A stretch of DNA of 64,000 bases. It comes from Desulfatitalea alkaliphila (lineage in GTDB: Bacteria > Desulfobacterota > Desulfobacteria > Desulfobacterales > Desulfosarcinaceae). The DNA lies in NCBI RefSeq assembly GCF_022968795.1, contig NZ_JALJRB010000008.1:124001-188000 (forward strand), read 5' to 3'. Positions 4,252 through 54,726 of the stretch are shown here, piece by piece; the first letter of the stretch is position 1, and every line of letters starts with the position of its first letter. Position numbers and translations under genes: made by a program. The notes under the pieces were generated by a model. That model had not been told where the DNA came from. It did not search any database and saw only the letters and a program-made list of their open reading frames with translations.

Positions 4252-4338
4252 GGATACCTTGCTCATGGTTGAATGTTGATCCTGCATAGGAACGTCGCCA
4301 CAACCGCAGCGGTCGGCGACGTGCCGCGCGAAGGTCTG

Positions 4339-19878: not shown

Positions 19879-20408
19879 AAGGCCGCTTTCACACCCTCTT
19901 CCATGGCCTTGATGTTCAACGGGATAAGCTTCGGTTTCGCGGCGAACTCCACCTCGATACAGTGTTTGAGGCTGTCGATGGAAACCAGTTTGGAGCGGGC
20001 CACGAAGGCCGCCAGGGCGACGATATTGGCCGCCTTGCCGTTGCCCACACTGGCGGCGATGTCCTGGGTGGGCACTTTGAGTTCATCCAGGTCGCTGCGG
20101 CCGGAATCCACCGGAATCAGGGAAAGATTGATCAACACCACGCCGCCCGGCTTGATCACCGGCGCGAACTTTTCCAGCGAGGGGCGATTCATGGCCACCA
20201 AGTGGGAGGGGTTCTTGATGATGGGCGAACCGATGGGCTGGTCGCCGATCACCACGGTGCAGTACGCCGTGCCGCCGCGCATTTCCGGGCCGTAGGAGGG
20301 AATCCAGGCCACCTCGTACCCCTCTTCCATGGCCGCATGGGCCAACAGCTTCCCGATGAGCAATATGCCTTGACCGCCGAATCCGGCGAACATCACTTCG
20401 TTTTGCAT
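19875..20408 (-). CDS. 2-oxoacid:ferredoxin oxidoreductase gamma subunit
   Basis: 177 aa. The family N terminus is EVMFAGFGGQGILLIGKLLA, followed by WIPSYGPEMRGGTAYCTVVI. The gamma subunit completes the heteromeric oxidoreductase that turns a 2-oxoacid, CoA and oxidised ferredoxin into acyl-CoA, CO2 and reduced ferredoxin. It overlaps the beta-subunit gene by 16 bases and hisC by 4 bases. The order ferredoxin-alpha-beta-gamma fits a VOR/KOR enzyme. Confidence 0.92.
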   Translation of the reverse strand: MQNEVMFAGFGGQGILLIGKLLAHAAMEEGYEVAWIPSYGPEMRGGTAYCTVVIGDQPIGSPIIKNPSHLVAMNRPSLEKFAPVIKPGGVVLINLSLIPVDSGRSDLDELKVPTQDIAASVGNGKAANIVALAAFVARSKLVSIDSLKHCIEVEFAAKPKLIPLNIKAMEEGVKAAL

Positions 20409-21163: not shown

Positions 21164-21194
21164 TGCTTGTACTCCTTATCAGGCGCGCTGGGGA

Positions 21195-39567: not shown

Positions 39568-40698
39568 TCAACGCGTCGGTTTGGATGGCAGGATCCGATC
39601 GACCACGGCCTCCGGCAGGCGCAGGGCGGCCCGCTGTCCTTCGGCGCTGTTCAGCAGCTGCCGCTGCAGCAGCATGCGCATGGAACGCGCCTTCTTGGCG
39701 GCCGATGCACGCGACAGATGGTCCACATCCTCGGCCGGCATCGCCGCAGTTTCCAGATAGCCGGCGCCTACCGCATCGGCCACCAAGGCGTCGCCCGCTT
39801 CGGTGCGCACGATCAGTGTGTTCCAACGGGAGCGGGCTTCATACATGCCCACCGACACATCGGCCAGCTCGGCCGTCATATCCAGACAGATGAAGCAGGT
39901 ATGGGGAATCAAGGGTTTGATTTCGGAAAGGGAGATGGTTTCCGTGCCCTGGTCCGTTTCCAGGACCATCACGTTGGCCGGCGGCGGCGGAATGTCCATG
40001 GCGCGGATGGTGTTCACATTCAAGCGGGCGGCCAGCAGATCGATCAGTTGACGGGTGTCCAGGGCCCAATTGCAAAACAGACCGATGGCCAGACCCACCG
40101 GCACGTTGTGCTCCGGCTTGCCCAATGGATTGCGGCGCATCTGGGCCAGCGCCATCATCTGGCAGGGGGTGCCCACCACGCCGATGCGCCGGTACCCTTG
40201 GCGCACCGCCTGGTTGACACCGGCCAGGGTGGGTGCGGCCATGAATTTGGCGCCACCATGGCGCGCCACTTCACGGGCATCGGTGACCAGACAGGCGTGC
40301 GGCACAAGTCCTTCGCGATCGGTCAGGGCCGCCACATCCACAAGGCCGCTCTCCAGCGCGAATGCCATCAGGGCCGAAACGGTGCCGCCCCCCTGGAAAG
40401 GGCCTTCGGTCATGCGTCGGCCGGCCCGGGCCGCCACCACCGAACGATGCACGCCCATGGGCAACGCCTCGTAATCACATTGGAAGCGATCTTGAAACAG
40501 ATCGTTCAAATCCACCTCCGCCTTGGGGCAGTAGGCGTAACAACGGCCTTGGGTCAAGGTGCAAGCAAACAGCCGGGAAGTCTTGCCCCGGTAGTTTTTA
40601 AAGTAGGGGCACAAATCCACACATGCCCCGCATCCGATGCACAACTCCCTTTGGTGCACATCCTCGAAAAGTTCGTTGGAACCATAAACCTGTGCCAT
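39568..40698 (-). CDS. FrhB-like (coenzyme F420 hydrogenase/dehydrogenase beta) iron-sulfur flavoprotein
   Basis: 376 aa from the ATG preceded by GGAGG. N-terminal ferredoxin-like cluster motif CIGCGACVDLCPYFKNYRGK, then CYAYCPKAEVDLNDLF. The FrhB catalytic core follows, with GPFQGGGTVSALMAFALESG and GVVGTPCQMMALAQMRRN. Members oxidise or reduce F420, formate-linked or other donors via FAD; in sulfate reducers they are common partners of Hdr-like or oxidoreductase complexes. No obvious partner gene is adjacent. Divergent from the alpha/beta hydrolase. Confidence 0.85.
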   Translation of the reverse strand: MAQVYGSNELFEDVHQRELCIGCGACVDLCPYFKNYRGKTSRLFACTLTQGRCYAYCPKAEVDLNDLFQDRFQCDYEALPMGVHRSVVAARAGRRMTEGPFQGGGTVSALMAFALESGLVDVAALTDREGLVPHACLVTDAREVARHGGAKFMAAPTLAGVNQAVRQGYRRIGVVGTPCQMMALAQMRRNPLGKPEHNVPVGLAIGLFCNWALDTRQLIDLLAARLNVNTIRAMDIPPPPANVMVLETDQGTETISLSEIKPLIPHTCFICLDMTAELADVSVGMYEARSRWNTLIVRTEAGDALVADAVGAGYLETAAMPAEDVDHLSRASAAKKARSMRMLLQRQLLNSAEGQRAALRLPEAVVDRILPSKPTR

Positions 40699-40939
40699 GG
40701 ACACCTCCATCCCCCTTGGCCCTGTAGATCGCCCGCCCGGCGGATCGCCTCGGCGCAGCGCAACAGCCGATCCGGTTGTTGCCTTCAAAAATAGACCGAC
40801 ACAGCGACAAATGCAATCCCTTAAAACCGGGTTCGGGAATGCTGAACGCGGCGTAACGCCCTGTTGTCTCCGGTTTTCAAAGGTGTTAAAGGGAGCTATC
40901 CAGACCCATTGCATGACAACCTTGCGCACAGGAGACCAT

Positions 40940-41752
40940 ATGCCACTGCACACCATCGACGACCATGCCGTGTATTACGCGTCGACCGGATCCGGGCATC
41001 CGTTGCTGCTCATCGCCGGTCTCGGCTCGAACCGCTCTTTCTGGTGGAAGCAAATCCCCGCCTTATCCGCCCGCCACCAGGTCATCACCCTGGACAACCG
41101 CGGCATCGGCGACAGCCCACCGGTGGCCGAACCATTCACCGTCGCGGACATGGCCGACGATGCCGCCGCTTTGATCCGCGCCCTCGGCCTGGGCCCGACG
41201 CACATCGTGGGCGTTTCCATGGGGGGCTTCATTTCCGTCACCCTCGCCCTGCGTCACCCGGAACTGGTGGACAAGTTGGTCCTTTGCGCCACCTCGGCCG
41301 GTGGCGCCGCCCACGTGCCGCCACCGCCCGAAATGCTCGACCTGTTGGTCCAACCCGATTTTCCCGACATTGCCGCCCGCACCCGGGCGGTCTACGGTGC
41401 CATCGCCGCACCGGGATACATGGCGGCCCACCCCGAGGACATGGACTTTCTGATTCGCGATGCCGAAGAAAAGCCCCCCACCATGGAAACCTATTTCCAT
41501 CAATTGGGAGCCGTTCACAATTACACCAGTCAAGCAGGGGCGGACAAAGACCTGGATCGCATCACGGCCCCGACCCTGGTGATCCACGGCGACATCGATC
41601 CGCTGGTCGACTATGAAAACGGCCGCTTTCTGGCTACTCATATCAAGGACGCCCGCTTCGAGACGTACACCGGGGTCGGTCACCTGGTCCCCATCGAGGC
41701 GAGCGACCGTTTCAATGCCGATGTTCTGGACTTTCTGCAACCGGAAGGATAA
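40940..41752 (+). CDS. Alpha/beta-fold hydrolase
   Basis: 270 aa from the ATG with AGGAG five bases upstream. HPLLLIAGLGSNRSFW (oxyanion region), TLDNRGIGDSP, the nucleophile elbow GVSMGGFISVTLAL, the acidic residue in VIHGDIDPLVDY and a C-terminal His in GVGHLVPIE give a complete Ser-Asp-His triad. It resembles enol-lactonase/esterase-type hydrolases. Substrate unknown. zupT follows by 25 bases. Confidence 0.88.
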   Translation: MPLHTIDDHAVYYASTGSGHPLLLIAGLGSNRSFWWKQIPALSARHQVITLDNRGIGDSPPVAEPFTVADMADDAAALIRALGLGPTHIVGVSMGGFISVTLALRHPELVDKLVLCATSAGGAAHVPPPPEMLDLLVQPDFPDIAARTRAVYGAIAAPGYMAAHPEDMDFLIRDAEEKPPTMETYFHQLGAVHNYTSQAGADKDLDRITAPTLVIHGDIDPLVDYENGRFLATHIKDARFETYTGVGHLVPIEASDRFNADVLDFLQPEG

Positions 41753-41777: not shown

Positions 41778-42587
41778 ATGATGCAGATGGACAACATGCT
41801 GTTCGCATTCGGCTTGACCCTTTTCGCGGGCCTTGCCACAGGCATCGGCGGCGCCATCGCCTTTTTCGCCAAAACCACCAACACCCGATTCCTGTCCGCC
41901 TCCCTGGGGTTTTCCGCCGGCGTCATGCTTTATGTCTCCTTCGTCGAAATCTTCGACAAAGCCCGGATCTCCCTGGCCAAACAGCATGGCGAACAGACCG
42001 GGGATCTGATTGCCGTGCTGGCCTTTTTCGGCGGCCTCTTCTTCATCGCCCTGATCGACAAGTTGGTGCCCGAATATCAAAACCCCCACGAAATGCGACG
42101 GGTCGAGGACATGGACGCCAAGCACCCGCCCAAAGGTGCCTTGATGCGCATGGGGCTCTTTTCCGCGGGGGCCATCGCCATTCACAATTTCCCGGAAGGT
42201 CTGGCCACCTTTGTGGCGGCCATGGCCGACCCCCAACTGGGCATCGCCATCGCCATCGCCATCGCCATCCACAACATCCCGGAAGGGATCGCCATTTCGG
42301 TGCCCATCTACTATGCCACCAACAGTCGCGCCAAGGCCTTCACCCACTCGTTTCTGTCGGGCCTGGCCGAACCCCTGGGCGCGCTGGCCGGGATTCTGCT
42401 GCTGCAATATTTCTTCAGCGACGACATCTTCGGTATTCTCTTCGCGGCCGTGGCCGGCATCATGGTGTTCATTTCCCTGGACGAACTGCTGCCGGCGGCC
42501 CAGCGCTACGGGGAACACCACACCTCCATTTACGGCCTCATCGCCGGCATGGTGATCATGGCCGCCAGTCTGCTGCTGCTGGGTTAG
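41778..42587 (+). CDS. zupT: ZIP-family metal transporter ZupT
   Basis: 269 aa with about eight membrane helices. The two metal-binding helices carry HNFPEG (from about residue 136) and HNIPEG, with the conserved E in SFVEIF. Length matches ZupT, an inner-membrane importer of Zn, Fe and other divalent metals. GGGAG precedes the ATG. A perfect hairpin follows the gene. Confidence 0.93.
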
Positions 42588-42640
42588 TTGGATTAGAACG
42601 AAGAGACGGACCGCAACTTGCCGTTTCCACATGGACACAA

Positions 42641-42681
42641 GTTGGGGAAACCCCCCTCGAAAACACGGGGGTTTCCCCAAC
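42641..42681. terminator. Long perfect hairpin after zupT
   Basis: A perfect 15-bp stem, GTTGGGGAAACCCCC with its complement, encloses an 11-base loop. Only a short T-poor tail (TGCTATTAT) follows on the plus strand. It stands between zupT and the kor/hdr cluster and probably insulates them. Confidence 0.7.
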
Positions 42682-42814
42682 TGCTATTATAAGCTTCCAA
42701 TTTTGCCTTGATTCATAAGCCGCAATCAGGTACAAGTGCGCCCATTGTGCCGGCCGACCGAGGCTTCCCCTTCACCGCCGGCATCCAACCCATCCGACTT
42801 GCAGGGAGTGACAG

Positions 42815-43090
42815 ATGGAGTTCTGGCGCGTGCCGTTGGACACCAATACCATCGAGATTGCCCACGGCGAAGTCCACATCATCGAAGATCGTTGCAAAGG
42901 GTGCGGCTACTGTATCGAGTTCTGCCCCCGGAGCATCCTGGCCTTTGCCGAACGTTTCAACGCCAAAGGCTACCATCCACCTGAAGTGCTGCGACCCGAA
43001 GGTTGTGTCAACTGCCACTATTGCGAAATCATATGCCCGGAGTTCGCCATTTTTTCGGTGGCGGCGCCCCCGCCGGCACCGACGGCATGA
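42815..43090 (+). CDS. korD: KorD-type ferredoxin delta subunit
   Basis: 91 aa. Two [4Fe-4S] motifs, CKGCGYCIEFCP and CVNCHYCEIICP, with the KOR-delta spacing and the segment GYHPPEV between them. It leads the korDABC set that feeds the Hdr-like genes downstream and probably relays electrons from the TPP enzyme. GCAGGGAG precedes the start. Confidence 0.92.
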   Translation: MEFWRVPLDTNTIEIAHGEVHIIEDRCKGCGYCIEFCPRSILAFAERFNAKGYHPPEVLRPEGCVNCHYCEIICPEFAIFSVAAPPPAPTA

Positions 43091-43204
43091 GCGGCCGTCG
43101 AGGCACGGCCGGCCATGTTCGCGGCGTATGAAAACGCTTGGAACGCCGCTCGTTATTTGGCACGAGGGTTCAATACCAACACCTTTCAGCATCGTGAGAC
43201 AGCA

Positions 43205-44350
43205 ATGAAACCAGCCGTTCTGACCGGAGAACACTACATGACAGGCGATGAAGCCTGTGCCGAAGGTGCATTGGCGGCGGGGTGCCGATTTTTCGGGGGG
43301 TATCCCATCACGCCGGCCACCGAAATCGCGGAACACATGTCCAAGCGCTTGCCCGAGGTGGGTGGCACCTTCATCCAGATGGAGGACGAGATCGCCGCCA
43401 TCGCCTCGGTGCTTGGTGGGGCCTGGTCGGGCCAAAAGAGCATGACCGCCACGTCGGGCCCCGGGTTCAGCCTGATGATGGAAAACGTCGGGCTGGGGGT
43501 GTGCACCGAAACCCCCTGCGTGGTGGTCAATGTGCAGCGGGTGGGCCCCTCCACCGGTCTGCCCACCATGGGCGCCCAGGCCGACATGATGCAGGCCCGC
43601 TGGGGTTCCCACGGCGATTACCGCATCATCGCCCTGGCACCCATGTCGGCCCAGGAGATTTTCTACCAGACGATCACCGCCTTCAACCTCAGCGAACGCT
43701 ACCGGACCCCTGTTTTTGTCATGACCGACGAGATCGTCGGCCACATGAGTGAAAAGGTGGTCATCCCGCCCGCCGACCAGATTGTCTGCGAATGGCGTCC
43801 CAAACCCAAAGGCCGCAAAGACCGCTTTCTGCTCTACAAACCCGGCAAAAACGGCGTGGCCCCCATGCCGGCGGCCGGTGAAGGCTACAACGTGCATGTG
43901 ACCGGCCTGACCCATGACGAGAAGGGCTATCCGGTCATGAGCGTGGAGGCTCAGCAGCAGATGATGGACCGGTTGTGTCATAAGATCGACGACAACCTGG
44001 ACGATATCGTGATGACCGAAGCCCACGGCCTGGAGGACGCCGAGGTGGTGCTGGTCTCCTACGGAATTTCGGCCCGCACCAGCCTGGCGGCCATGCATCA
44101 AGCCCGGGCCGCGGGCATGAAGGTCGGTTTTCTGCGCCTGATCACCGTATGGCCCTTTCCCCAAGAGCGGATCGCGGCCCTGGCCGAGCGGGTCAAGGCC
44201 CTGGTGACGGTGGAAATCAACCTAGGCCAGATCCATCTGGAGGTGATGCGCGCCGCGGCCGGTCGAACCGCCTGCCACCTGGTGGGCCACGCCGGCGGCA
44301 CCATCATTTCGCCCGACCAAGTGATCGCCACCCTCAAGGAGGTGTTGTAA
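43205..44350 (+). CDS. korA: 2-oxoacid (2-oxoglutarate):ferredoxin oxidoreductase alpha subunit
   Basis: 381 aa, started at MKPAVLTGEHY. Signatures are DEACAEGALAAGCRFFGGYP, YPITPATEIAEHMSKRLPE, TATSGPGFSLMMENVGLG and VQRVGPSTGLPTMGAQADMMQARWGSHGD. Domain II includes VVLVSYGISARTSLAAM. This resembles KorA rather than the VorB encoded at 21-22 kb, so the window carries two distinct oxidoreductases. It shares one base with korB. Confidence 0.92.
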   Translation: MKPAVLTGEHYMTGDEACAEGALAAGCRFFGGYPITPATEIAEHMSKRLPEVGGTFIQMEDEIAAIASVLGGAWSGQKSMTATSGPGFSLMMENVGLGVCTETPCVVVNVQRVGPSTGLPTMGAQADMMQARWGSHGDYRIIALAPMSAQEIFYQTITAFNLSERYRTPVFVMTDEIVGHMSEKVVIPPADQIVCEWRPKPKGRKDRFLLYKPGKNGVAPMPAAGEGYNVHVTGLTHDEKGYPVMSVEAQQQMMDRLCHKIDDNLDDIVMTEAHGLEDAEVVLVSYGISARTSLAAMHQARAAGMKVGFLRLITVWPFPQERIAALAERVKALVTVEINLGQIHLEVMRAAAGRTACHLVGHAGGTIISPDQVIATLKEVL

Positions 44351-45195
44351 TGCCTGCCACGGCCCGTAAAACGATGCCCAAAACCCCGGACCATCCCCTC
44401 GAGGCGCTGATCCGCTCCGATCGCATCCCTCACATCTGGTGCCCGGGATGCGGTATCGGCACCGCCTTCGCGGCCGCCTTGACCGCCATGGCGACCAGCG
44501 GCCTGGACCTGCAAAAGACCTGCATGGTTTCGGGCATCGGCTGTTCCGGCCGTGCCGCCGGCTACGTGAACCTGGACTCTTTTCACACGACCCACGGCCG
44601 GGCGATCCCCTTCGCCACCGGTTTGAAGCTGGGCAATCCGGCCCTCAACGTGGTGGTGTTCAGCGGCGACGGCGATCTGTTCGCCATCGGCGGCAATCAC
44701 TTCATTCACGCCGCACGGCGCAACATGGACCTGACCGTCATCTGTCTCAACAACCTGAACTACGGCATGACCGGCGGCCAAGTGGCGGCCACCACACCCT
44801 TCCATGCCCGCACCACCACCACCCCCATGGGCAACCCCGAAGCGCCCTTCAATCTGCCCTTGCTGGCCTGGGCGTCGGGCGCCACCTACGTGGCCCGCTG
44901 GACCATCTTGCACACCCGTGAACTGACGGAATGCATTCAGAAGGCCATTCGCAAAAGCGGCTTTTCCTTCATCGAGGTGTTGGGCCCCTGCCCGGTCAAT
45001 TACGGTCGGCGCAACAAGGAGAAATCCTTGCAAACGCTGAAGATGTACCAGGAACGGACCATCATTCGCAACGACCCCCGGATGGACGATCTGGAGGTGG
45101 ATTTCACCCGGCAGGTGGTCCTGGGCGAATTCGTGGACAAAGACCGGCCGACCTGCATCGAAAATTACGATAAAACGTGCAGGATACTCGAATAG
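44350..45195 (+). CDS. korB: 2-oxoacid:ferredoxin oxidoreductase beta (TPP) subunit
   Basis: 281 aa; ATG overlaps the korA stop (TAATG). IPHIWCPGCGIGTAFAAAL gives the proximal cluster Cys pair. GIGCSGRAAGYVNLDSFHTTHGRA, VFSGDGDLFAIGGNHFIHAARR and NNLNYGMTGGQVAATTP bind TPP-Mg. The late Cys in VLGPCPVNYG is also typical. It is the catalytic subunit producing acyl-CoA, CO2 and low-potential electrons. Confidence 0.93.
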   Translation: MPATARKTMPKTPDHPLEALIRSDRIPHIWCPGCGIGTAFAAALTAMATSGLDLQKTCMVSGIGCSGRAAGYVNLDSFHTTHGRAIPFATGLKLGNPALNVVVFSGDGDLFAIGGNHFIHAARRNMDLTVICLNNLNYGMTGGQVAATTPFHARTTTTPMGNPEAPFNLPLLAWASGATYVARWTILHTRELTECIQKAIRKSGFSFIEVLGPCPVNYGRRNKEKSLQTLKMYQERTIIRNDPRMDDLEVDFTRQVVLGEFVDKDRPTCIENYDKTCRILE

Positions 45196-45295
45196 TTTAT
45201 GACGCTGAACCCTTGGGGCGGTGTCATTGAATTCAATACTTGCGTTTCTTACGGCCATGCCGGCCGGCCGGAAGCGGTTTTCAGGGGGGAACGTT

Positions 45296-45871
45296 ATGGT
45301 CAAACAGTTGATGATCACCGGATTCGGCGGGCAGGGCGTCGTGCTGGCCGGGCGCATCGTGGGCCAGGCGGCGGCCATCGGCGATGCGCTGGAGAGCACC
45401 TTCGTTCAGTCCTACGGCCCCGAATCCCGCGGCGGGGCGTGCAGTGCCCAGGTCACCATCGCCGACGGCCCGATTTACTTTCCATACATCAAGCACCCCG
45501 ACATTCTGGTCTGCATGTCCCAATCGGGCTACGACAAATATCGTGCCCTGCTCAAACCGGACGGCACCTTGATTCTGGAACAGGACCTGGTCAAACCGGT
45601 CGGCGGTCAAGACCATTTCGCCATTCCCTGCACGCGCTTCGCCGAGGAGTTGGGCAATAAAATGATGGCCAACATCATCATGATCGGTTTTCTGGCCGCC
45701 ATCACCGAAGCCGTTTCCCTGGATGCGGTGCGCGCAACCGTATTGTCCTCGGTGCCCAAGGGCACCGAGGAGAAGAACCTCAAGGCGTTCGAGCGGGGCT
45801 GGGACTATGCCCTGGCCACCCTCAAAGGACGCCGCAACAAGGCGGCCGGCCGGATAGGAGTCGTGGCATGA
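45296..45871 (+). CDS. korC: 2-oxoacid:ferredoxin oxidoreductase gamma subunit
   Basis: 191 aa from an ATG with AGGGGGGA upstream. Family pattern MITGFGGQGVVLAGRIVGQA and SYGPESRGGACSAQVTIAD. It completes KorABCD. It overlaps the start of the giant HdrA/GltD-like gene by 4 bases (ATGA), tying the Kor enzyme to the Hdr-like proteins in one transcript. Confidence 0.92.
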   Translation: MVKQLMITGFGGQGVVLAGRIVGQAAAIGDALESTFVQSYGPESRGGACSAQVTIADGPIYFPYIKHPDILVCMSQSGYDKYRALLKPDGTLILEQDLVKPVGGQDHFAIPCTRFAEELGNKMMANIIMIGFLAAITEAVSLDAVRATVLSSVPKGTEEKNLKAFERGWDYALATLKGRRNKAAGRIGVVA

Positions 45872-48800
45872 CGCAAACCAAAAACAGGCTGCACAGTGTT
45901 TTGATCATCGGCGCCGGGCCGGCGGGCGTGGCGGCCGCCAACAAACTGGGGGAGCTGGGCGTGCCCGTCACCCTGGTGGACGGCGAGGCGGATCTGGATC
46001 GCAAGCTGGGCGCCGAAGCCTACCGCCTGCCATCGGGCACCCCATTCAATTTCGCCCACCGTCCCGGTCTGATCCGCATACTGCGCAACCGCAACCTCAA
46101 CTGCGCCCTTCCGGCCACCATCGGCGCAATCAAACACAGCCAACAAGGCTTCCGTGTGCAGCTGACCTTGCCCGCCACCTATGTCGACAGCGAGCGCTGC
46201 ACCCTCTGCGGTCAATGCGTGGCCGCCTGCCCGCTGGAAGGGACCGACCACCCCCCCATCCAGTTCACCGGCCGCATGGCCCTCCCGGGCCGCGCCGCCA
46301 TCGACAAGCGCAACCAACCGTTGTGCCAGGCCGACTGCCCGCTGGGCGTCAATGTACAAGGCTACATGGCCCTGGTGCGTGCCGGTCGTTTCGATGAGGC
46401 CCTGGCATTGATTCGCAATGAGAACGTGTTGCCCGCCATTTGCGGCCGGATCTGCACCCACCCCTGCGAGGCGGCCTGCCGCCGGGCCGGACAGGACGGC
46501 CCCCTGGCGATTCGGGATATCAAACGCTTCATCACCGACCAATGCGCCGATTTGCAGGCCTGTGAATCGACACCAACACGCACAGCCACACCGGCGGCGC
46601 CCTTGCCCGACAGTATTGCGGTGGTGGGCTGCGGCCCGTCCGGCCTGGCGGCCGCCGCCGACCTGGTGCGCCGCGGATTCGCCGTCACCATTTACGAGAA
46701 GGAGCAACACCCCGGCGGCCTGCTGCGCTACGGTGTCGGCCCCCACCGCCTGCCGCGCGACATTCTGGCAACGGAAGTCGCCGAGGTGCTCGACCACGAC
46801 CGAGTGGCCCTGATCAGCGGCCGTGCCGTATCCCTCCCCGAAGAACTCATCACCCTGCGCCAAAGCCATCGGGCGGTGATTCTGGCCACCGGTTCCTGGG
46901 CCGATCGCTCCCTGGGGGTGCCGGGTGAAACGCTGGACGGGGTCCAGGGGTGCCTGGCCTTTCTCAATGGCTATTACCGCGGCGATGCAACACCGCCCCG
47001 AGGGCGCGTGGCGGTCATCGGCGACGGCAACGCGGCCTTCGACCTCGCCCGGGTGCTGCATCGGGCCGGTGCCGACGTCACCCTGCTCTCCTGGTTCGGC
47101 AGGGATGAAATTCCGGCCGATGTGGACGAAGTGGAAGCCGCCCTGCAAGAGGGCATCACCATCCGGGACCGGTGCCAAGTGGTGGGTTTCGACGGCGCCG
47201 GGGGACGATTGCAATCGGTGCGCACCCGTGCCACGCGATCGGGGCCCCTGGATGCCCAAGGCATCGCCTGGCCGGTGATCGTCGCAGAGCGCGTGGAAGT
47301 CCCGCTGGCCTTCGACCACGCCTTCGTGGCCATCGGCCAGGCCGGAGCTTACGGCCGACTGCGAAACCGGGACGACTTGGCCGTCGACGGACGTGGATTG
47401 GTTACGGTGGACAGCCGCGGACGCACTTCCCTGGAAGGCATCTACGCCGCCGGCGATGCCGCCACCGGCGCCACCTCCGTTGTGCATGCCATGGCCGACG
47501 GCCGCAAAATTGCGGCGACCGTGACCGCCGACCTGAACGGATCGTCGCCCCATGCCGGTGCCCCTGCCCGGGATGCGGTGCGCCCCGCCGATCGGGATTT
47601 CGATCCCGTTCCCGCCGACCTGCCTGTCCGGCAGCGCGCGGCCATGCCGACGCTGCCTCCGGAAAAGCGGCGGCAAAATTTCGCGGAAGTGGCCCTGGGC
47701 CTCAGCCCGGACCAGGCCATGGCCGAAGCCGGCCGTTGCCTGCAGTGCGGCGTGTGCGCCGAATGTCTGGCCTGCCTGCCGGCCTGCGAGGCCAACAACG
47801 CCATCCGCCATGATCAACAGCCCAGCTCCTTCACCGAAAACGCCGGGGTGTTGATCATCGCCGATCCCGCCATGGCGCCGGGCATCAAAGGCGAAGACGT
47901 CCTGCGCGCCTATGGACCACCCAGTGCCAAGAACGATGTGCACGCCATGATGCTGCGCGGTTTTGCCGCCGCGGCCCATGCCATGATGCTGTTGCAGCGC
48001 AACGGCATGCGCATGAAGGGACAAGGGTTGGCCTTCGTGCCGCCCGACCCGGGCCTGCAAAGGGAAGTCCGCATGGGGGTGTTCGCCTGCCGCTGCAACG
48101 ATGCCATGGGCTGGCTGCCCGAGATGGATGCCTTCATGGCGGACCTCAACAGCCAACCCGACATCGTTCACGCCGAAGTGTTGACTTCGGCCTGTATTCC
48201 CGAAGGCATTCAACGGATCACCGATGCGGTGCGAGACAAGGGGCTGACCCGGCTGGTGGTGGCCGCCTGCGTCTGCTGCCCGCTCAACTTCGTCTGCAGC
48301 GCCTGCACCGATCAGCGCAGCCGCCTCAAGCGCGGCCTGTTCGACGGCACCGGCATCAGCCGCTCCATGGTGCAAACCTGCAACCTGAGGGGCGAGGCGC
48401 TGCGTATGACCGCCAAGGATGCGCCGGCCGCCATGGCCGCCTTCGAGGGGTTGATCAAGCGCAGTATCGGCCGGGCCCGCAAGTTGCTGCCCTTTCCGGC
48501 ACCGGCCCGGGCCTACAATTTCACCACGGCCGTCATCGGGCACACCGAAGCGGCCCTGACCACCGCCCGCACCTTGGCCGAGGCGGGTTTCGATGTGCTC
48601 CAGTTCGGCGGTACCGGACGCCCCTTGACCCAAGCGGCCCAACACCCCAATGTGCACGCCTTCGAAGGCTCCACCGTGCAGGCCGTCAGCGGCACCCTGG
48701 GCAATTTCCAGGTGCACACCCAATGCGAAGGCGAACAGCGCATCTTCTCGGTGGGCGGCGTGGTGCTGGGCGAAAAATCACGGCGCATCGCCATCTACCG

Positions 48801-49266
48801 CCAGCACGCACTGCTGCCGGAAATGAAGGTGCTGGCCGGCGCGCAAAAGGCCGACCTGCCGGGCATGCCGTTCATGTACCCGGGCACCACCTCCATCTCC
48901 GGACTCTTCCTGGCCGACCCGCCCAACATCCAAATTTCCAAGCGCACCAAGGGTGAGGCCGTGGCCGTGCTGGCGGCGGCGGCCATGCCCAGGGGACCGC
49001 GTCAGAACCGCGGCTTCTCCGTGGTGGTGAACGAATCTCTGTGTCGCGGCTGCGGCCGTTGCCTCGCCGCCTGTGTCTATCAAGCCGTCAGCCTCAAACC
49101 ACGCCCCAACGGCAGCTGGACCGCCACGGTGGACGATGCCCTTTGCAAGGGATGCGGCAACTGCATCTCGGTCTGCCCGTCCAACGCAGCGGACAGCCCC
49201 TACCGTGACCAGGCCTGCCTCGAACAGATGGTCGAGGAGCTGTTGCTGGCCGACAGCAGGAGTTGA
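45868..49266 (+). CDS. Giant fused flavoprotein: HdrA-like and GltD/NfnB-like modules with multiple [4Fe-4S] sites
   Basis: 1132 aa. Order of parts: an FAD fold (VLIIGAGPAGVAAANKL, about 12-28); [4Fe-4S] CTLCGQCVAACPLEG (about 111); a GltD/DPYD-type N-terminal cluster domain (CQADCPLGVN, CGRICTHPCEAACRR, about 153-205); a GltD FAD domain (VVGCGPSGLAAAADL, about 252) and NAD(P) fold (VAVIGDGNAAFDLARVL, about 382); CLQCGVCAECLACLPACE (about 625); an HdrA-like region with GVFACRCND and CVCCPLNFVCSACTDQR (about 733-815); and two C-terminal ferredoxin motifs (CRGCGRC, CKGCGNC, about 1058-1100). It looks like an NfnB-like NAD(P)H module fused to HdrA-like wiring. Its place after korC suggests that it exchanges electrons between Kor ferredoxin, NAD(P)H and Hdr. 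Confidence 0.85.
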   Translation: MTQTKNRLHSVLIIGAGPAGVAAANKLGELGVPVTLVDGEADLDRKLGAEAYRLPSGTPFNFAHRPGLIRILRNRNLNCALPATIGAIKHSQQGFRVQLTLPATYVDSERCTLCGQCVAACPLEGTDHPPIQFTGRMALPGRAAIDKRNQPLCQADCPLGVNVQGYMALVRAGRFDEALALIRNENVLPAICGRICTHPCEAACRRAGQDGPLAIRDIKRFITDQCADLQACESTPTRTATPAAPLPDSIAVVGCGPSGLAAAADLVRRGFAVTIYEKEQHPGGLLRYGVGPHRLPRDILATEVAEVLDHDRVALISGRAVSLPEELITLRQSHRAVILATGSWADRSLGVPGETLDGVQGCLAFLNGYYRGDATPPRGRVAVIGDGNAAFDLARVLHRAGADVTLLSWFGRDEIPADVDEVEAALQEGITIRDRCQVVGFDGAGGRLQSVRTRATRSGPLDAQGIAWPVIVAERVEVPLAFDHAFVAIGQAGAYGRLRNRDDLAVDGRGLVTVDSRGRTSLEGIYAAGDAATGATSVVHAMADGRKIAATVTADLNGSSPHAGAPARDAVRPADRDFDPVPADLPVRQRAAMPTLPPEKRRQNFAEVALGLSPDQAMAEAGRCLQCGVCAECLACLPACEANNAIRHDQQPSSFTENAGVLIIADPAMAPGIKGEDVLRAYGPPSAKNDVHAMMLRGFAAAAHAMMLLQRNGMRMKGQGLAFVPPDPGLQREVRMGVFACRCNDAMGWLPEMDAFMADLNSQPDIVHAEVLTSACIPEGIQRITDAVRDKGLTRLVVAACVCCPLNFVCSACTDQRSRLKRGLFDGTGISRSMVQTCNLRGEALRMTAKDAPAAMAAFEGLIKRSIGRARKLLPFPAPARAYNFTTAVIGHTEAALTTARTLAEAGFDVLQFGGTGRPLTQAAQHPNVHAFEGSTVQAVSGTLGNFQVHTQCEGEQRIFSVGGVVLGEKSRRIAIYRQHALLPEMKVLAGAQKADLPGMPFMYPGTTSISGLFLADPPNIQISKRTKGEAVAVLAAAAMPRGPRQNRGFSVVVNESLCRGCGRCLAACVYQAVSLKPRPNGSWTATVDDALCKGCGNCISVCPSNAADSPYRDQACLEQMVEELLLADSRS

Positions 49267-49269
49267 ATC

Positions 49270-50868
49270 ATGCCCGAACCGTTGAAGATCGTCCTTTTTT
49301 TGTGCAACTGGGGCCCCCATGCGGCCTATCAGGCCCTGCAGGACCGCAGCGCCGACATTCCGTCCGAAATCAAGATGATCCGCATTCCGTGCAGCGGCCG
49401 CATCAGCAAAGCCTTGCTCTTCAAGCCATTTGAAATGGGCGCCGACGGCGTCTTGCTGCTCGGTTGCCGCTCGGGCACCTGCCGCTACGGCACCGGCACA
49501 TCGGCCGCGGAAGAGAACACCGCCGACACCCGCCGCATCATGGCCTTGATCGGTCTGGGCGGCGAACGGCTGGAACTGGCCACTTTTCTGCCCGATGAAC
49601 CCGAGGCCCTGCTGACCTTCCTGCAATCCTTCGCCGATCGTATCCGGCAAATGGGCCAAAGCCCAATCACGCGCCGGACACGGCCGATCGCCGAGGATAC
49701 GGCGGCAGGCGACCTGCCGACGACACCCGAAGCCATCGTGGCCGCCCACGATGTATTCGCCTGTCAGGATTGCGGCAAATGCACCTCGGCCTGCTCCCTT
49801 GCCCTGGCCGGCAAATCCTACTCGCCGCGCTTCATGGCCGCCGAGATCATCGCCGGCCGTGCCGACGCAGCCGCGGTGCGCAACGCCGTCAACAGCTGCC
49901 TGACCTGCGGCATTTGCTACGAGCGGTGTCCCTCGGCGGTCAACTTCCCCGAGTTCATCAAGTCCATGCGCATCTACTACCACGACCGGGAAGTGGCCGC
50001 CGCCCCGGCCCACGGCGGTTTCTTTCAGAGCATGATGCGCGCCATGACTTCGCCGACCCTGGCACCCCAGCGCTGGCGGCAGTTGCCCGACACCATCCGC
50101 ACCCGCTCCCGCGGCCCGGTGCTTTTCTTCGGCGGGTGCGCACCGTACTTCGACATCTTCTTCAACAAATTCCTCGGCGTGCGCACCCACCACATCCTAG
50201 AGGACAGCCTGCGCCTGCTCAATTTCTTCGATGTGGAACCGGCCCTTCTGGAAAACGAACGCTGTTGCGGCCACGACCTGCTCTGGTCCGGCGACCGCGA
50301 CAACTTTCTGCGCCTGGCCCGCCTTAACGCGGAAGCCATTGCCGCCAGCGGCGCCGAAGAGCTGATCACCGCCTGCCCCGAATGCTGCCACACCCTGGAA
50401 GTCGAATACGCCCGTCACGGTGTGACGCTGCCGCTGAAGATCACCCACATGCACGCCTTTCTGGAACGGGAGATCGACAAGGGCGCGGTGGCCTTCAAAC
50501 CGTTGGAAGGCTGCGCCACCTTCCAGGACGCCTGCCGTCAGAGCCGTTTCAGCGGCCAAGCGGCGCTGCCCCGCAAACTGCTCGCGCCGCTTTACGGCAA
50601 CACGCCCGGCGGCCTGGTGGACGCCGAAGCACCCAGCATCTGTTGCGGAAACAGCGCCTGGATCGGGTGCGACGCCGACAGCAAGGCCATGCAGGTGCAG
50701 CGGCTGGAAAAAGCACGCCGCAGCGGCAGCACCACCATGATCACCGCCTGTCCCAAGTGCCAAATCCACCTGCGCTGCGCCATGGAAGATGTGGTGCGCG
50801 CGAAGCAGTTGAAAATGGAACTGGTGGATCTGACCAGCTTGATTGCGAAGACCATCCATTGGGAATAA
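49270..50868 (+). CDS. MvhD-HdrC-HdrB fusion protein
   Basis: 532 aa. Residues 8-125 are MvhD-like (FLCNWGPHAAYQAL, RIPCSGRISK, LLLGCRSGTCRYGTG), although the first Cys pair is reduced to CNWG. Residues ~165-235 are an HdrC-type double cluster domain (CQDCGKCTSACSLALAGKSY, CLTCGICYERCPSAV). Residues ~278-515 hold two full CCG domains of HdrB: GCAPYF...CCGHDL...CPECC and GCATFQ...CCGNSA...CPKC. HdrB carries the non-cubane 4Fe-4S clusters that reduce disulfides, and both sets of ligands are intact. The gene starts 3 bases after the previous stop. HdrB's usual substrate, CoM-S-S-CoB, is a methanogen compound, so the substrate here must differ and is unknown. Confidence 0.88.
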   Translation: MPEPLKIVLFLCNWGPHAAYQALQDRSADIPSEIKMIRIPCSGRISKALLFKPFEMGADGVLLLGCRSGTCRYGTGTSAAEENTADTRRIMALIGLGGERLELATFLPDEPEALLTFLQSFADRIRQMGQSPITRRTRPIAEDTAAGDLPTTPEAIVAAHDVFACQDCGKCTSACSLALAGKSYSPRFMAAEIIAGRADAAAVRNAVNSCLTCGICYERCPSAVNFPEFIKSMRIYYHDREVAAAPAHGGFFQSMMRAMTSPTLAPQRWRQLPDTIRTRSRGPVLFFGGCAPYFDIFFNKFLGVRTHHILEDSLRLLNFFDVEPALLENERCCGHDLLWSGDRDNFLRLARLNAEAIAASGAEELITACPECCHTLEVEYARHGVTLPLKITHMHAFLEREIDKGAVAFKPLEGCATFQDACRQSRFSGQAALPRKLLAPLYGNTPGGLVDAEAPSICCGNSAWIGCDADSKAMQVQRLEKARRSGSTTMITACPKCQIHLRCAMEDVVRAKQLKMELVDLTSLIAKTIHWE

Positions 50869-50947
50869 GAAAGTCGGTTCAAGGCTTGAAGGGCGACAAT
50901 TTGAAGCCCGGACTGCAATCCTTAAACTTCAACGCACAGGACGTTTC

Positions 50948-53377
50948 ATGACCAAATCTGCTTCAACCATGGCAATCCAATCCGAAAGCACTCCGAAAAT
51001 CGGCGTTTACGTCTGCCATTGCGGTTTGAACATCGCCCAAACCGTGGACTGCGACGGTGTGGCCGCCGCCATGGCCGAGTTGCCCGATGTGGTGGTGGCC
51101 AAAGGCATCGGCTACGCCTGCAGCGAGCCGGGCCAACGGGAGATCCGCGATGACATCGCCAACCTCGGACTCAACCGCGTGGTGGTGGGTTCTTGTTCAC
51201 CCCGCCTGCACGAGCCCACTTTTCGCCAGATGCTGACGGCGGCCGGTCTCAATCCTTTCCTTTTGGAAATGGCCAATCTGCGCGAGCAGTGCAGTTGGGT
51301 GCACATGCAGACGCCGGCGGCGGCCACCGCCAAGGCCCACGACCTGATGTGCATGGCCGTGGCCCGGGCACGGCGACTGGCGCCCCTGGAAGCCCCCAGC
51401 ATGCCCATGACCCAGCGGGCCATGGTGCTCGGCGGCGGCGTGGCCGGCATTCAGGCGGCCCTGGACATGGCCGACAACGGCTATGAGGTGGTGATGGTGG
51501 AAAAGGCGCCCTCCATCGGTGGCGTCATGGCCCAGTTGGACAAAACCTTCCCCACCATGGACTGTTCCATCTGAATCCTCGGTCCGAAGATGACGGATGC
51601 CGGTCGGCATCCCCGGATCACGATTCACACCTTGAGCGAAGTGACGGACATCAAGGGCCATGTGGGCAACTTCGAGGTCAAGGTCGTCAAGAAGGCCCGC
51701 TACGTGGACGAAGCGGCCTGCACGGCCTGCGGCGAGTGCGCCAAAGTTTGCCCCGTGGTGCGCCCCGACGAATTCAACATCGGCCTTTCCTCGCGCCGCG
51801 CGATTTACTCCCCCTTTCCCCAGGCCGTGCCCTCGGCCTATGTGCTCAATCCCCAGGAGTGTCTGGGCAACAACCCCGTGGTGTGCAGCAAGTGCTTGGA
51901 AGCGTGCGAGAAGAAGTGCATCGACTTTCACATGTCCGACCAGACCCTGGACCTGCGGGTGGGCACCATCGTGGTGGCCACGGGCCTCACGCCCCACGAC
52001 CCGCGCCCCCTGGATGAATACGGCTACACCCGTTACCAGAACGTGCTCACCAGCCTGGAGTTCGAGCGGTTGGTCAATGCCGGCGGCCCCACCCAGGGCC
52101 GGCTGATGCGCCCCACCGATCGCCGCACCCCGCGCTCGGTGGGTTTCATCCAGTGTGTCGGCTCCCGTTCCGCCAAACGCGGCAAGTCCTACTGCTCCAA
52201 CATCTGCTGCATGAACACCGTGAAAAGCACCTTGGTGCTCAAGGAGCACTACCCGGACATGGCCGTCAAGGTGTTCTACATCGACATCCGCGCCTTCGGC
52301 AAAGGGTTCGAAGCGCTCTACACCCGCAGCCGCCGTCTGGGGGTGCATTATGTGCGCGGCCTGCCGGGCAACGTGGAAGAGCTGCCCGACGGCCGCTTGC
52401 GGGTTGCCGTGGAGAACACCGCCGGCGGCACCCTGGAACAGTACGAGCTGGACATGCTGGTGCTGGCCACGGGCATCGAACCGCCCGCCGGCACCCAAAA
52501 GTTGCAGGAAATGCTGGGGCTGCAGCTGTCCAGCGACGGCTTCTTCCTGGAAGCCCATCCCAAACTGCAACCGGTGGATGCGGCCACCCGCGGTATCTTC
52601 TACGCCGGTTGCGCCGAAGGGCCCAAGGACATCCGCGAAAGCGTCACTCAGGCCTCGGCCGCCGCGGTGCGCGCCATCCGCCTGATGCAGGCCGACCGGA
52701 TCAGCGGCGAGGCCATCACCTCGGAAATCGATCCCGACCTGTGCAAGTCCTGCGGCAAGTGCGCCGAAGTGTGTCCGTACAACGCCATCACCGTGGACAC
52801 CAAGCAGAAGACTCCGGCCCAGGTCGCCACGGCGGCCTGCAGCGGCTGCGGCACCTGTGCCGCGGAGTGCCCCTTCGGCGCCATCACCATGCACCACTTC
52901 ACCGACCCGCAGATCGGCGGCCAGATCGATGCCCTGCTGGAGCGCGAACCGGCCACCAAAATTCTTGCCTTCGCCTGTAACTGGTGCTCCTATGCGGGTG
53001 CCGATTACGCCGGCGTATCCCGGCTGCAATACCCGCCCAACGTGCGCCTGATCCGCACCATGTGCTCGGGCCGGGTGGACGAAGACTTCATCTGGCAAGG
53101 TTTCCGCAACGGCGCGCCGGTGATCCTGGTCAGCGGTTGCCACATCGGCGACTGCCACTACATCGATGCCAACCACTGGACCGTCAAGCGCATCGAAAAG
53201 GTGCGCAAGAAGATGGAAAAGCGGAGCATCCGCCCCGAACGGTTGCAACTGGAATGGATCAGCGCCGCCGAGGGCATACGTTTCGCCGAAGTCATGGCCC
53301 GCATGGAAGCGCTGCGGCAATCGGTGACCGCGCAGGAGATCGCCGACACCGTGGCCGTGCTCAGCAAAAAAGGGTAG
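50948..53377 (+). CDS. hdrA: Selenocysteine-containing HdrA-MvhD fusion
   Basis: 809 aa counting one recoded TGA (51572-51574) as residue 209. Start at MTKSAST with AGGA six bases upstream. Order: HdrA N-terminal region (GVYVCHCGLNIAQTV, about 19-32), FAD fold (MVLGGGVAGIQAAL), FPTMDCSI-U209-ILGPKM, ferredoxin-type CTACGECAKVCPV, a further Cys-rich insert CSKCLEACEKKC, two more ferredoxin motifs (CKSCGKC, CSGCGTC), and MvhD from about 670 (CNWCSYAGADYAG, MCSGRVDEDF, SGCHIGDCHY). The reading frame is unbroken on both sides of the TGA, and the Cys-x2-Cys of other HdrAs aligns with C206-x2-U209. HdrA selenoproteins are known in methanogens and sulfate reducers. It is the last Hdr gene of the kor-hdr cluster. 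Confidence 0.88.
51572..51618 (+). promoter_or_regulatory. Selenocysteine TGA codon and bacterial SECIS-like hairpin
   Basis: The TGA is followed after 20 bases by a perfect 7-bp stem, GGATGCC (51595-51601) and GGCATCC (51606-51612), with loop GGTC. GGUC is also the core of the apical loop of the E. coli fdhF SECIS, and the TGA-to-loop distance of 27 bases lies in the usual bacterial range. ATCC right after the TGA can pair with GGAT at 51615-51618 as a lower stem. Confidence 0.8.
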
Positions 53378-53385
53378 ACGACCCG

Positions 53386-54726
53386 TTGGCCGATTCACCA
53401 CCCCTGCGGCCCCTGGGCCCCATGGAACAGCTGTTTGTGATGCTGGACCAGGCCGCAACCATCCATTTCAGCATGTGGGCCCGGCTCCAGGGGCGACTGA
53501 CAACGGATCTGGTGTCCGCCGCCCTGGCCGCCCTTCAAAGCCGCCACCCCCTGCTGCGGGCGGCCATCGAGGCCAAAGGCACCGGCGCGCTCTGGTTCGT
53601 TGCCACCGCGCGGCCAATCCCCCTGACGGTCGTTGCCGCATCTTCTCCGGCCAAGGGGCTCGTCCCGCACCTCGAAGCCGAACAACGCCATCCTTTCAAT
53701 ACGGCCGCCGGACCCCTGATACGCGCCCGGCTGGTGCAAGCCGGCCCCGAAGACCAAACCCTGCTGCTCACCTTCCATCACGCCATCGCCGACGGCATCA
53801 GCGCCGCCACTCTTTTCGGCCATCTATTTGAAACCCTGGACCGCCTGCAAACCGGTCAGAATCCCGACACAACGCCGATGGCCGACGACGGGCCCCTGGA
53901 GCACCATATCCCCTCGACCCATCGCGGCCTGCATGCCATGGCCCGCGCCGCCGCCCATGCAGGCATGCAAAACCTGCAACGTCTGATCCGACCACCAACC
54001 CACCTCCCCATCACTACCCGGCAACCGCCCGAAGCAGGACGCAACCGGTTCATCCTCAACACCCTGACGACGGATCAGACCCGGCGCTTGATCCACCAGG
54101 CGCAGCGGCACGGCTGCACCGTCCAGGCGGCCCTGTGCGCCGCCCAGTCGCACGCCCTGCTGTCCCTATGGCCCGACCGTGCAAAACTGCACACCTGGCT
54201 GCTTTCCCTGGTGGACCTGCGCCGGCGCACGTCCCCCCCCCTGGCCGCAAAAATCGCCGGTCTGAACATCTCCATGGTGGAGGCCTGTCACCGGGTCCGC
54301 CGCGACACGCCCTTCTGGGAACTGGCCCGTCAAATCCAAACCGCCCTGCAAAACAACATCAACACGGGCTTTCATTGGTGGTACCTGCCCACCCAGGCAC
54401 GCTGGGGCGGATGGACCCGACCCTTGCGCCCCACCGGGCCCAACGCCGCCCGCGCCCTGGTCGGCCACGCCCGCCGCATCCGACCGTCGGCCCTGACGGT
54501 CACCAACATCGGTCAACCGGCCATCCACCCCATACGCCCCAACTACCGCATCCGGGCCATGTCCTTCGTTGCCCCCCTCTCCTTCGTCGGCCGCATGGGC
54601 GCGGCCATCAACACCTTCGACGGCCGATTGCACTGGAACTTCATCTACAATGCGCCAGCTGTTAGTCCGGAAGCCGCGGCTGAATTTGTTGATCGAAGCA
54701 AGGCAATGCTTATCGTAAGTATTTGA
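53386..54726 (+). CDS. Condensation-domain / wax-ester-synthase-like acyltransferase
   Basis: 446 aa from a TTG 8 bases after the hdrA stop; ATG at 53422 is possible but would cut off the family start (RPLGPMEQLFVMLDQAATIHF). The catalytic motif is FHHAIADGISAATLF (HHxxxDG). ALQSRHPLLRAAI and, near the C terminus, GRMGAAINTFDGRLHWNFIY fit the chloramphenicol-acetyltransferase-like fold shared by peptide-synthetase condensation domains and alcohol/wax-ester acyltransferases. Acyl-CoA made by Kor could be a substrate, but this is only inferred from position. Confidence 0.75.
   Translation: MADSPPLRPLGPMEQLFVMLDQAATIHFSMWARLQGRLTTDLVSAALAALQSRHPLLRAAIEAKGTGALWFVATARPIPLTVVAASSPAKGLVPHLEAEQRHPFNTAAGPLIRARLVQAGPEDQTLLLTFHHAIADGISAATLFGHLFETLDRLQTGQNPDTTPMADDGPLEHHIPSTHRGLHAMARAAAHAGMQNLQRLIRPPTHLPITTRQPPEAGRNRFILNTLTTDQTRRLIHQAQRHGCTVQAALCAAQSHALLSLWPDRAKLHTWLLSLVDLRRRTSPPLAAKIAGLNISMVEACHRVRRDTPFWELARQIQTALQNNINTGFHWWYLPTQARWGGWTRPLRPTGPNAARALVGHARRIRPSALTVTNIGQPAIHPIRPNYRIRAMSFVAPLSFVGRMGAAINTFDGRLHWNFIYNAPAVSPEAAAEFVDRSKAMLIVSI

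Follow-up and report, generated by a model that had tools for sequence, protein, structure and literature searches.

A widespread seven-gene cluster joining a four-subunit 2-oxoacid:ferredoxin oxidoreductase to a putative Hdr-type electron-bifurcating module in Desulfatitalea alkaliphila

An Hdr-Flx complex has been proposed to feed both the 2-oxoglutarate:ferredoxin oxidoreductase (OGOR) and a thiol:fumarate reductase in tubeworm symbionts (PMC6315080; PMC11636981; these and all further papers are cited from excerpts), and in Endoriftia the genes korABCD lie between hdrA and hdrBC and are co-expressed with Hdr-Flx (PMC11636981). One cluster from Cloacimonadota gathers OGOR, thiol:fumarate reductase, fumarase, succinyl-CoA synthetase, Mvh and Hdr (PMC8542988), the HdrL of Desulfobacterium autotrophicum HRM2 is a fusion of HdrA with glutamate synthase (PMC2702500), type III HdrA carries a GltD insert (PMC12054007), and other Hdr clusters are present in sulfate reducers (PMC10553843; PMC5109826). 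The source of low-potential electrons for reductive carboxylation has been called unresolved for bacteria with the reductive tricarboxylic acid (TCA) cycle, and for Aquifex it is discussed whether ferredoxin might come from Hdr (PMC10052474). The present article deals with seven genes, all on the + strand at positions 42815-53377 of a 64-kb stretch of the Desulfatitalea alkaliphila genome (hereafter the window; contig NZ_JALJRB010000008.1 of a 5.07-Mb draft assembly; locus L073), in which korD, korA, korB and korC—encoding a 2-oxoacid:ferredoxin oxidoreductase (Kor)—are followed by three genes for flavin/iron-sulfur fusion proteins. A first-pass annotation, made from the letters of the window, had viewed them against known Hdr complexes that pair with hydrogenase or formate dehydrogenase, a picture that is incomplete, leaving out FlxABCD, MetFV and the OGOR-Hdr proposals cited above.

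The reading that best accounts for the results, to which we assign a probability of a little under 0.6, is that KorDABC is an OGOR coupled to a dedicated bifurcating HdrABC-MvhD module, the two-electron, mid-potential partner being NAD(H), served by an NfnB/GltD-type fusion. Coupling of Kor to a bifurcating complex of the Hdr type is preferred because the cluster has been inherited as a whole and HdrA, HdrB and HdrC retain their metal-ligand motifs. What the comparisons below display directly is the gene order, the ligand motifs, the conservation of the unit, the wide link of Kor of this kind to Hdr genes and the TCA context of the relatives; from these we infer the substrate of this member, the preference for NAD over NADP, the formation of a stable complex, its direction and the identity of the high-potential partner.

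The gene order and position given by the first-pass annotation were both borne out, as was the 4-base overlap (ATGA) between the korC stop codon and the start codon of the following fusion gene, the next gene starting after a spacing of 3 bases. This order recurs widely in Desulfobacterota and beyond. Among 164 loci scanned, 100 contain the seven genes in order, and 83 are left after the removal of duplicates—recognised by identity of the match to the 1132-residue fusion, loci fetched by genome and by name often being the same DNA. They comprise 64 close loci, whose fusion has 47% identity or more, and 19 divergent ones, the latter originating from three Chloroflexota (L136, L137, L140), six genomes of the order to which the window belongs and ten others of its phylum. 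Within that order, 146 genomes contain the fusion in 34 cases, this KorA in 34 and the MvhD-HdrC-HdrB fusion in 35, all three occurring together in 32; the 1132-residue fusion and KorA co-occur in 33, with one genome each way having one but not the other (Fisher p about 2e-30 for hand-copied sets, uncorrected for shared ancestry). The pattern is broken in G091, G133, G068 and G074, all of them fragmentary drafts. At the level of the phylum, close fusions were recognised by bit score in at least 29 and divergent ones in at least 12 of 395 genomes, both being lower bounds with two candidates scored per genome; of the 20 close loci fetched, some of them also known by name, 18 possess all seven genes and two are cut, the corresponding numbers for the 12 divergent loci being ten and two. 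The median spacing between korC and the fusion gene is 2 bases as judged from tblastn matches. Named genome records contributed 80 of the loci. Over the whole set, most of the incomplete loci are cut by contig ends. No eighth gene is shared, the commonest flanking family being seen in 9 of the 83 loci. The seven genes thus behave as one evolutionary unit, and chance or artefact is ruled out by the conservation of that unit. Cultured carriers include Desulfatibacillum alkenivorans, Desulfobulbus rhabdoformis, Desulfocicer vacuolatum and Desulfogranum mediterraneum.

The first-pass annotation had held that Hdr-like genes regularly lying apart from kor would speak against it; for this subfamily that is not the case, as all fetched orthologues of the 1132-residue fusion (at least 47% identical) adjoin either kor or, on that side, a contig end. 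It should be noted that the linkage is a property of the subfamily: all eight longer HdrL fusions taken as control loci are without a kor match, and so are, in their fetched flanks, 11 of the 80 named loci, which hold distant relatives (L138, L141, L143-L145, L147-L149, L151-L153). A single combined HdrL family is therefore ruled out. One of these distant relatives, from Firmicutes UBA3570 (L141, 2580-20400), has fumarase, TfrAB-like proteins, SucCD, HdrA and an HdrL-type fusion together.

Seen from the side of Kor, a KorA match at E 1e-118 or better is present in at least 114 of the 395 genomes, four candidates per genome having been scored. With KorA at least 54% identical, Hdr genes adjoin in 65 of 71 assessable Desulfobacterota genomes, Kor standing alone in six. 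At about 67% identity or more, 27 of 29 assessable genomes are Hdr-linked on the same contig (31 in all, with G147 and G465 left out for contig ends beside kor), and at 54-64% the linkage holds in 38 of 42 (43 in all, with G262 cut and left out), the solitary cases being L236, L237, L254 and L256; G289 was counted as linked with only 248 residues of HdrA match at a contig end. Below this range, five sampled KorA at 50-53% identity have no Hdr match nearby, nor do the two KorA paralogues of the host genome at their own loci. The evolutionary tree of 79 KorA sequences, midpoint-rooted and with groups and outgroup of our choice (17 KorA of the close type, i.e. 16 random ones plus that of the window), places 72 in one mostly Hdr-linked clade (support 100/99), apart from seven solitary ones that include both host paralogues; L234 is labelled there as alone, although its contig is cut. 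Solitary Kor pairs are nested in three places within the clade, which would best be read as three losses. The clade covers diverse gene architectures: the divergent type of fusion alongside an MvhD of its own (L250), kor followed by hdrA and then hdrC/hdrB (L247), and hdrC-hdrB-hdrA ahead of kor (L241, L242). In L255 (1542-11191), korA and korB are separated by hdrA, an MvhD fusion and FlxAB-like genes, and korC is followed by hdrC/hdrB. The link to Hdr has thus been kept across five or more different gene arrangements. Among 193 loci, FlxAB-like matches were seen in L149 and L255 only, none being present at the locus of the window.

Concerning the enzyme itself, its four-subunit set (alpha, beta, gamma and delta) is complete and includes the thiamine and cluster domains. 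KorA scores 571 bits with the general 2-oxoacid model (NF006412 of NCBIfam, cut-off 411), 393 with the 2-oxoglutarate alpha model and 317 with VorB; its nearest solved chains (1yd7, 8ys5) are alpha subunits of 2-oxoglutarate synthase, and the YPITP motif is present. The best solved match of KorB is chain C of 8ys5. The nearest NCBIfam families of KorC are those of 2-oxoacid oxidoreductase gamma subunits (NF006323; 192 bits, the cut-off being 235), and KorD has the OGOR delta subunit as its top family, albeit with 62 bits against a cut-off of 125. The neighbourhood of the relatives is in part that of a TCA operon: in L242, isocitrate dehydrogenase, malate dehydrogenase, fumarase, hdrC, hdrB, hdrA, korD, korA and korBC are followed by an iron-sulfur protein and an FAD flavoprotein—the two being TfrAB-like in our reading—and then by sucC, sucD and a GltD-type protein. 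Operons L244, L260 and L261 resemble it and L251 holds part of it, while sucCD precede the seven-gene cluster in the Chloroflexota locus L140 and also adjoin the solitary-kor relatives L254, L256, L257 and L259. This context points to 2-oxoglutarate/succinyl-CoA as the substrate pair, and since sucCD accompany relatives on several branches of the tree, the Kor of the window is bracketed by descent as a probable 2-oxoglutarate enzyme. The substrate residues of 2-oxoacid:ferredoxin oxidoreductases given in the excerpted text of PMC5020499 do not settle the substrate in this case. The operon type seen in L242 (1-15254; isocitrate and malate dehydrogenases, fumarase, HdrCBA, KorDABC, TfrAB-like proteins, SucCD and a GltD-type protein) could itself represent a possible electron-bifurcating reductive half-cycle.

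The 1132-residue fusion, whose best named match originates from a Desulfatitalea metagenome-assembled genome (77% identity), is probably, from its motifs, an NAD(H)-linked flavin/iron-sulfur electron-entry module with degenerate HdrA halves. Residues about 57-566 of its predicted model form a GltD part matching NfnL/NfnABC chains with Z of 30-32. HdrA chains are also found among the structure matches (8rvu, Z 21.9; 6tjr, Z 22.2), but these align to the GltD part and are thus uninformative on the HdrA halves. The FAD motif of GltD is intact, whereas most relatives carry degenerate versions of the two HdrA-type Rossmann motifs, usually GATPxG and G-x-S/T-E/Q-A/S; the first HdrA-type site of the window copy reads GAGPAG. 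The earlier statement that HdrA is present twice accordingly stands by domain ancestry, but not as two equal sites, the first HdrA part being degenerate in most relatives; the arrangement suggests a single clear site of HdrA bifurcation, accompanied by a flavin site of the NfnL type. At the 2'-phosphate site the window has SWF instead of YRR, a mark of NADP specificity that is present in the aligned NfnA/StnC chains; 94 of 97 non-redundant close relatives likewise have SWF, the other three having YRR, and the replacement suggests NAD(H) over NADP(H).

In the MvhD-HdrC-HdrB fusion, the HdrC cysteines 165, 168, 171, 175, 210, 213, 216 and 220 are invariant in all 15 aligned sequences, as are the ten cysteines of the HdrB CCG domains (290, 332, 333, 369, 372; 422, 458, 459, 494, 497), so that the HdrB ligands are indeed intact, as had been noted from the single sequence. 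The first MvhD domain is without the second cysteine of its CxxC motif in all 15 sequences; the second MvhD domain, which belongs to the HdrA-MvhD fusion, keeps it. The model of the 532-residue protein, with a predicted local distance difference test (pLDDT) score of 75.3, matches MvhD over residues 2-138 (Z 22.9, 137 residues, root-mean-square deviation 1.9) and HdrB over residues 282-531 (Z 20.0, 235 residues, deviation 2.8), its top structural match being EtfD over residues 247-532 (Z 23.7, 262 residues, deviation 2.9).

The last protein is a canonical HdrA, exceeding the cut-off of the HdrA2 model of NCBIfam (1183.5 bits, cut-off 1100), matching the solved chain 5odc_A with E 4e-224 and keeping the flavin motif, the inserted ferredoxin clusters, the C-terminal clusters and the Cys/Sec motif. 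That the last of the three fused proteins is a single open reading frame holds only if the in-frame TGA within MDCSI-U-ILGPK encodes an amino acid, a selenocysteine being absent from the first-pass account. At this position TGA is seen in 104 of 112 non-redundant scored HdrA matches, with Cys in six, Asp in one and a gap in one; of the eight without TGA, L137 alone is a kor-linked locus. SelB is present in the host genome (379.6 bits, cut-off 242), and a hairpin downstream of the TGA, sought as a selenocysteine insertion sequence, is no more stable than shuffled sequences (z -0.78). Reading of the TGA as selenocysteine is thus probable, judged from codon conservation and SelB.

If the parts work together as in the preferred reading, electrons from NADH would enter at the GltD flavin of the 1132-residue fusion, whose iron-sulfur clusters, followed by the MvhD domains, would carry them to the FAD in the selenocysteine-containing HdrA. 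There each pair would be split: one electron would go via HdrC to HdrB, with its non-cubane clusters, and on to a high-potential disulfide-type acceptor, the other via the ferredoxin domains of HdrA to KorD and the thiamine enzyme, where succinyl-CoA and CO2 would be converted to 2-oxoglutarate in the favoured direction. In reverse, by confurcation, electrons from 2-oxoglutarate and a thiol would yield NADH. The potentials in question are near -0.5 V for the 2-oxoglutarate couple, -0.32 V for NADH and about -0.15 to -0.3 V for disulfides. Bifurcation-driven carboxylation is favoured by the reductive TCA-like neighbourhood of the relatives together with the published cases, and the module probably drives the carboxylation of succinyl-CoA. 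Kor had looked at first like the low-potential donor; its coupling to Hdr remains the best reading, but Kor is not necessarily the donor. The reductive direction is at least as likely.

As for the acceptor, 34 genomes, both carriers and others taken for comparison, were tested, and 29 encode a DsrC-family protein, including all 22 close-type carriers among them. DsrC is a possible high-potential partner in sulfate reducers; as a universal partner it is not supported, being missing in G247, G275, G426, G524 and G526. Dependence on the Wood-Ljungdahl pathway is likewise unsupported, CdhC being present in 27 of the 34 genomes and missing in G012, G196, G231, G416 and G426 and also in G347 and G389, where kor is solitary. 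A bolder proposal, which we consider rather doubtful, is that the seven proteins form one stable enzyme in which HdrA splits the electrons from NADH, so that one would serve, with no free ferredoxin involved, to form 2-oxoglutarate out of succinyl-CoA and CO2, while a disulfide would take up the other. If true, that disulfide would be DsrC in sulfate reducers and a fumarate-linked thiol couple in the relatives, and the enzyme would be a carboxylase with built-in bifurcation and interchangeable inputs (NfnB/HdrA fusion, FlxAB, or none) in the members of a single old clade of Hdr-linked Kor.

Several results weigh against the coupling of an OGOR to the Hdr module, and some of them favour one or another of its alternatives. 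Kor can evidently stand alone: in G347 and G389, of one genus and 98% complete, a Kor with 74 and 73% identical KorA occurs with no fusion detected at 1e-150, and together with the four other solitary loci mentioned above this means that Kor is not strictly dependent on the Hdr module. (At these two loci, L232 and L233, no Hdr match is seen near Kor; CdhC is missing from both genomes too.) No Kor-Hdr gene fusion exists in 62 clusters, the only fusions being KorB-KorC in four. The cluster is split in G032, with kor and the 1132-residue fusion on one contig and the last two genes elsewhere with other flanks, and scattered over contigs in G018; the 81% complete draft G074 keeps the last two genes only, and at L117 the downstream stretch of about 6 kb is without hdrA. 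The split and partial clusters correspond to L163-L169 (G068, G018, G032, G074), the pair of MvhD-HdrC-HdrB and HdrA lying in G032 and G074 on a stretch with neither kor nor the 1132-residue fusion. The whole-model pLDDT of that fusion is only 57.7, so that its model is too poor to trace the electron path, and the absence of DsrC from five of 34 genomes means that no single disulfide partner fits all. It could be imagined that Kor and an NAD(H)-linked Hdr complex are simply co-regulated and communicate through the soluble ferredoxin pool, an ordinary bifurcase of NADH, disulfide and ferredoxin serving an ordinary ferredoxin-dependent Kor. The independence of Kor and the lack of Kor-Hdr fusions fit this view, as do the ordinary 2x[4Fe-4S] delta subunit KorD and the ferredoxin domains that HdrA itself possesses; nevertheless, the near-absolute linkage of the 1132-residue fusion to kor with no other gene shared, and the Hdr genes lodged between korA and korB in L255, exceed what a common pool would require, and we regard this explanation as unlikely. 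Marginally less unlikely, and held only tentatively, is oxidative confurcation, in which oxidation of 2-oxoglutarate (or another 2-oxoacid) by Kor and electrons from a thiol or another HdrB donor would yield NADH via HdrA; as a reverse run of identical parts, it overlaps in probability with the preferred reading. Hdr complexes are reversible in principle and the DsrC-family protein is common in the genomes tested, but the operons of the relatives include TfrAB-like fumarate-reductase genes, the published cases are reductive TCA clusters, and the host encodes a member of the CdhC family (CO dehydrogenase/acetyl-CoA synthase), so that an oxidative TCA step may be needless.

The substrate is the other matter in dispute. 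KorB has the OGOR beta subunit as its top NCBIfam family, but with 237 bits against a cut-off of 364, and it scores below two other KorB proteins of the genome on that model (288 and 281 bits). Both belong to further KorA/KorB pairs, one of which (L185, 766-6917, - strand, G000:C6) adjoins a 1045-residue glutamate-dehydrogenase-like protein (ELFV_dehydrog, Bac_GDH_CD) and may serve in ordinary glutamate/2-oxoglutarate oxidation; for that role the genome thus offers candidates besides the clustered Kor. In addition, none of the close-type loci has sucCD in its fetched flanks. These features would be expected if the Kor of the close subtype had shifted to another 2-oxoacid, e.g. a branched-chain or aromatic one, and the complex served amino acid metabolism. 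We consider such a shift improbable, given that both solitary and Hdr-linked relatives on several branches adjoin sucCD, that KorA scores higher with the general and 2-oxoglutarate models than with VorB, and that no flanking family exceeds 9 of 83 loci. The coupling of an OGOR to a bifurcating Hdr module is thus retained as the best explanation.

The coordinates are summarized in Table 1. The korA open reading frame may begin at 43115, its homologues beginning near 43205, and the start codon of korB has one base in common with the stop codon of korA. A promoter scan of 42500-53700 found no site.

Table 1 Genes of the Kor-Hdr cluster and the probable selenocysteine codon, with positions in the window
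Feature	Position	Strand	Basis
KorD, 2x[4Fe-4S] ferredoxin-type delta subunit, 91 aa (amino acids)	42815..43090	+	Fer4 pair (Pfam); first gene in conserved cluster
KorA, 2-oxoacid:ferredoxin oxidoreductase alpha subunit, 381 aa	43205..44350	+	POR_N/PFOR_II (Pfam), NF006412
KorB, beta subunit (thiamine diphosphate), 281 aa	44350..45195	+	TPP_enzyme_C (Pfam), 8ys5 chain C
KorC, gamma subunit, 191 aa	45296..45871	+	NF006323, below cut-off
NfnB(GltD)/HdrA-type fusion, 1132 aa	45868..49266	+	Fer4_20, Pyr_redox_2 and C-terminal Fer4 pair (Pfam)
MvhD-HdrC-HdrB fusion, 532 aa	49270..50868	+	FlpD, Fer4 and CCG domains (Pfam)
HdrA-MvhD fusion, canonical HdrA, 809 aa	50948..53377	+	Fer4 and FlpD (Pfam), HdrA2
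In-frame TGA, probable selenocysteine, MDCSI-U-ILGPK of HdrA	51572..51574	+	Conserved TGA, SelB in genome

Neither among the seven genes nor among the scanned flanking genes at this locus are there subunits of hydrogenase or formate dehydrogenase. An FrhB/FdhB-type protein (Pfam FrhB_FdhB_C; 39571-40956, - strand) is encoded a few kb upstream of korD and a condensation-domain/PapA-like acyltransferase (53419-54723, + strand) directly 3' of hdrA, both of them having no match at the other loci of the order. The window also contains a second Hdr-type locus (764-4287, - strand), where MvhD (FlpD, 177 bits) adjoins a 1023-residue protein with two flavin-type regions and iron-sulfur domains, and, away from the cluster, a VorB-like 2-oxoacid oxidoreductase subunit (21198-22283; NF005507, 505 bits, cut-off 399) within 20396-22283 on the - strand.

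The joining of Kor to an electron-splitting machine suggests a direct way to power, or to harvest, a very low-potential carbon-fixing step, and the cluster offers a compact and widespread candidate answer to the question of the electron source for reductive carboxylation, testable in cultured strains. The seven-gene unit is a widespread new form of the OGOR-Hdr coupling already proposed for tubeworm symbionts, extending that suggestion, made also for Thioflavicoccus, to a sizeable part of Desulfobacterota and, in a divergent form, to some Chloroflexota; no published description of the arrangement was found in the literature, supplements and subscription papers being outside the search.

The closest relatives in the literature are the reductive TCA clusters of tubeworm symbionts and Thioflavicoccus mobilis (korABCD, flxABCD-hdrABC and tfrAB), which, according to the excerpts, likewise mix a four-subunit OGOR with HdrABC and an NADH-input module and for which a direct electron flow to OGOR has been proposed. 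There, however, the NADH module is FlxABCD, set among aclAB, tfrAB, pntAB and rnf genes in Gammaproteobacteria, whereas here it is the NfnB/HdrA fusion, in a self-contained set of seven genes with the fused MvhD-HdrC-HdrB and the selenocysteine-type HdrA-MvhD. The MvhADG-HdrABC complex of methanogens and its formate and F420 variants (5odc, 7bkb, 8rvu) are alike in HdrA, HdrB, HdrC and MvhD with intact ligands; the present cluster differs from them in having no hydrogenase, formate dehydrogenase or F420 subunit, in its GltD module and in Kor as the low-potential partner, coenzymes M and B not being expected here. With HdrL and type III HdrA it shares, as far as their excerpted descriptions go, a GltD-type NAD(P)H domain inside an HdrA-like protein, but the HdrL-type controls are open frames of 1473-1740 residues apart from kor, whereas the present fusion has about 1120-1150 residues, is bound to kor and in most relatives has degenerate HdrA flavin motifs. 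The GltD/NfnL fold is also that of the NADH-dependent ferredoxin:NADP oxidoreductases NfnAB, NfnABC and StnABC (5jca, 9n5v, 8oh5), from which the module differs by SWF in place of YRR, by the lack of NfnS and by membership in an Hdr-Kor cluster. Finally, the ordinary four-subunit OGOR (8ys5) is alike in its subunit set and family scores, and the order D-A-B-C of OorDABC is also that of korDABC; the enzyme described here is, in contrast, linked to Hdr and belongs to a separate, mostly Hdr-linked clade of KorA.

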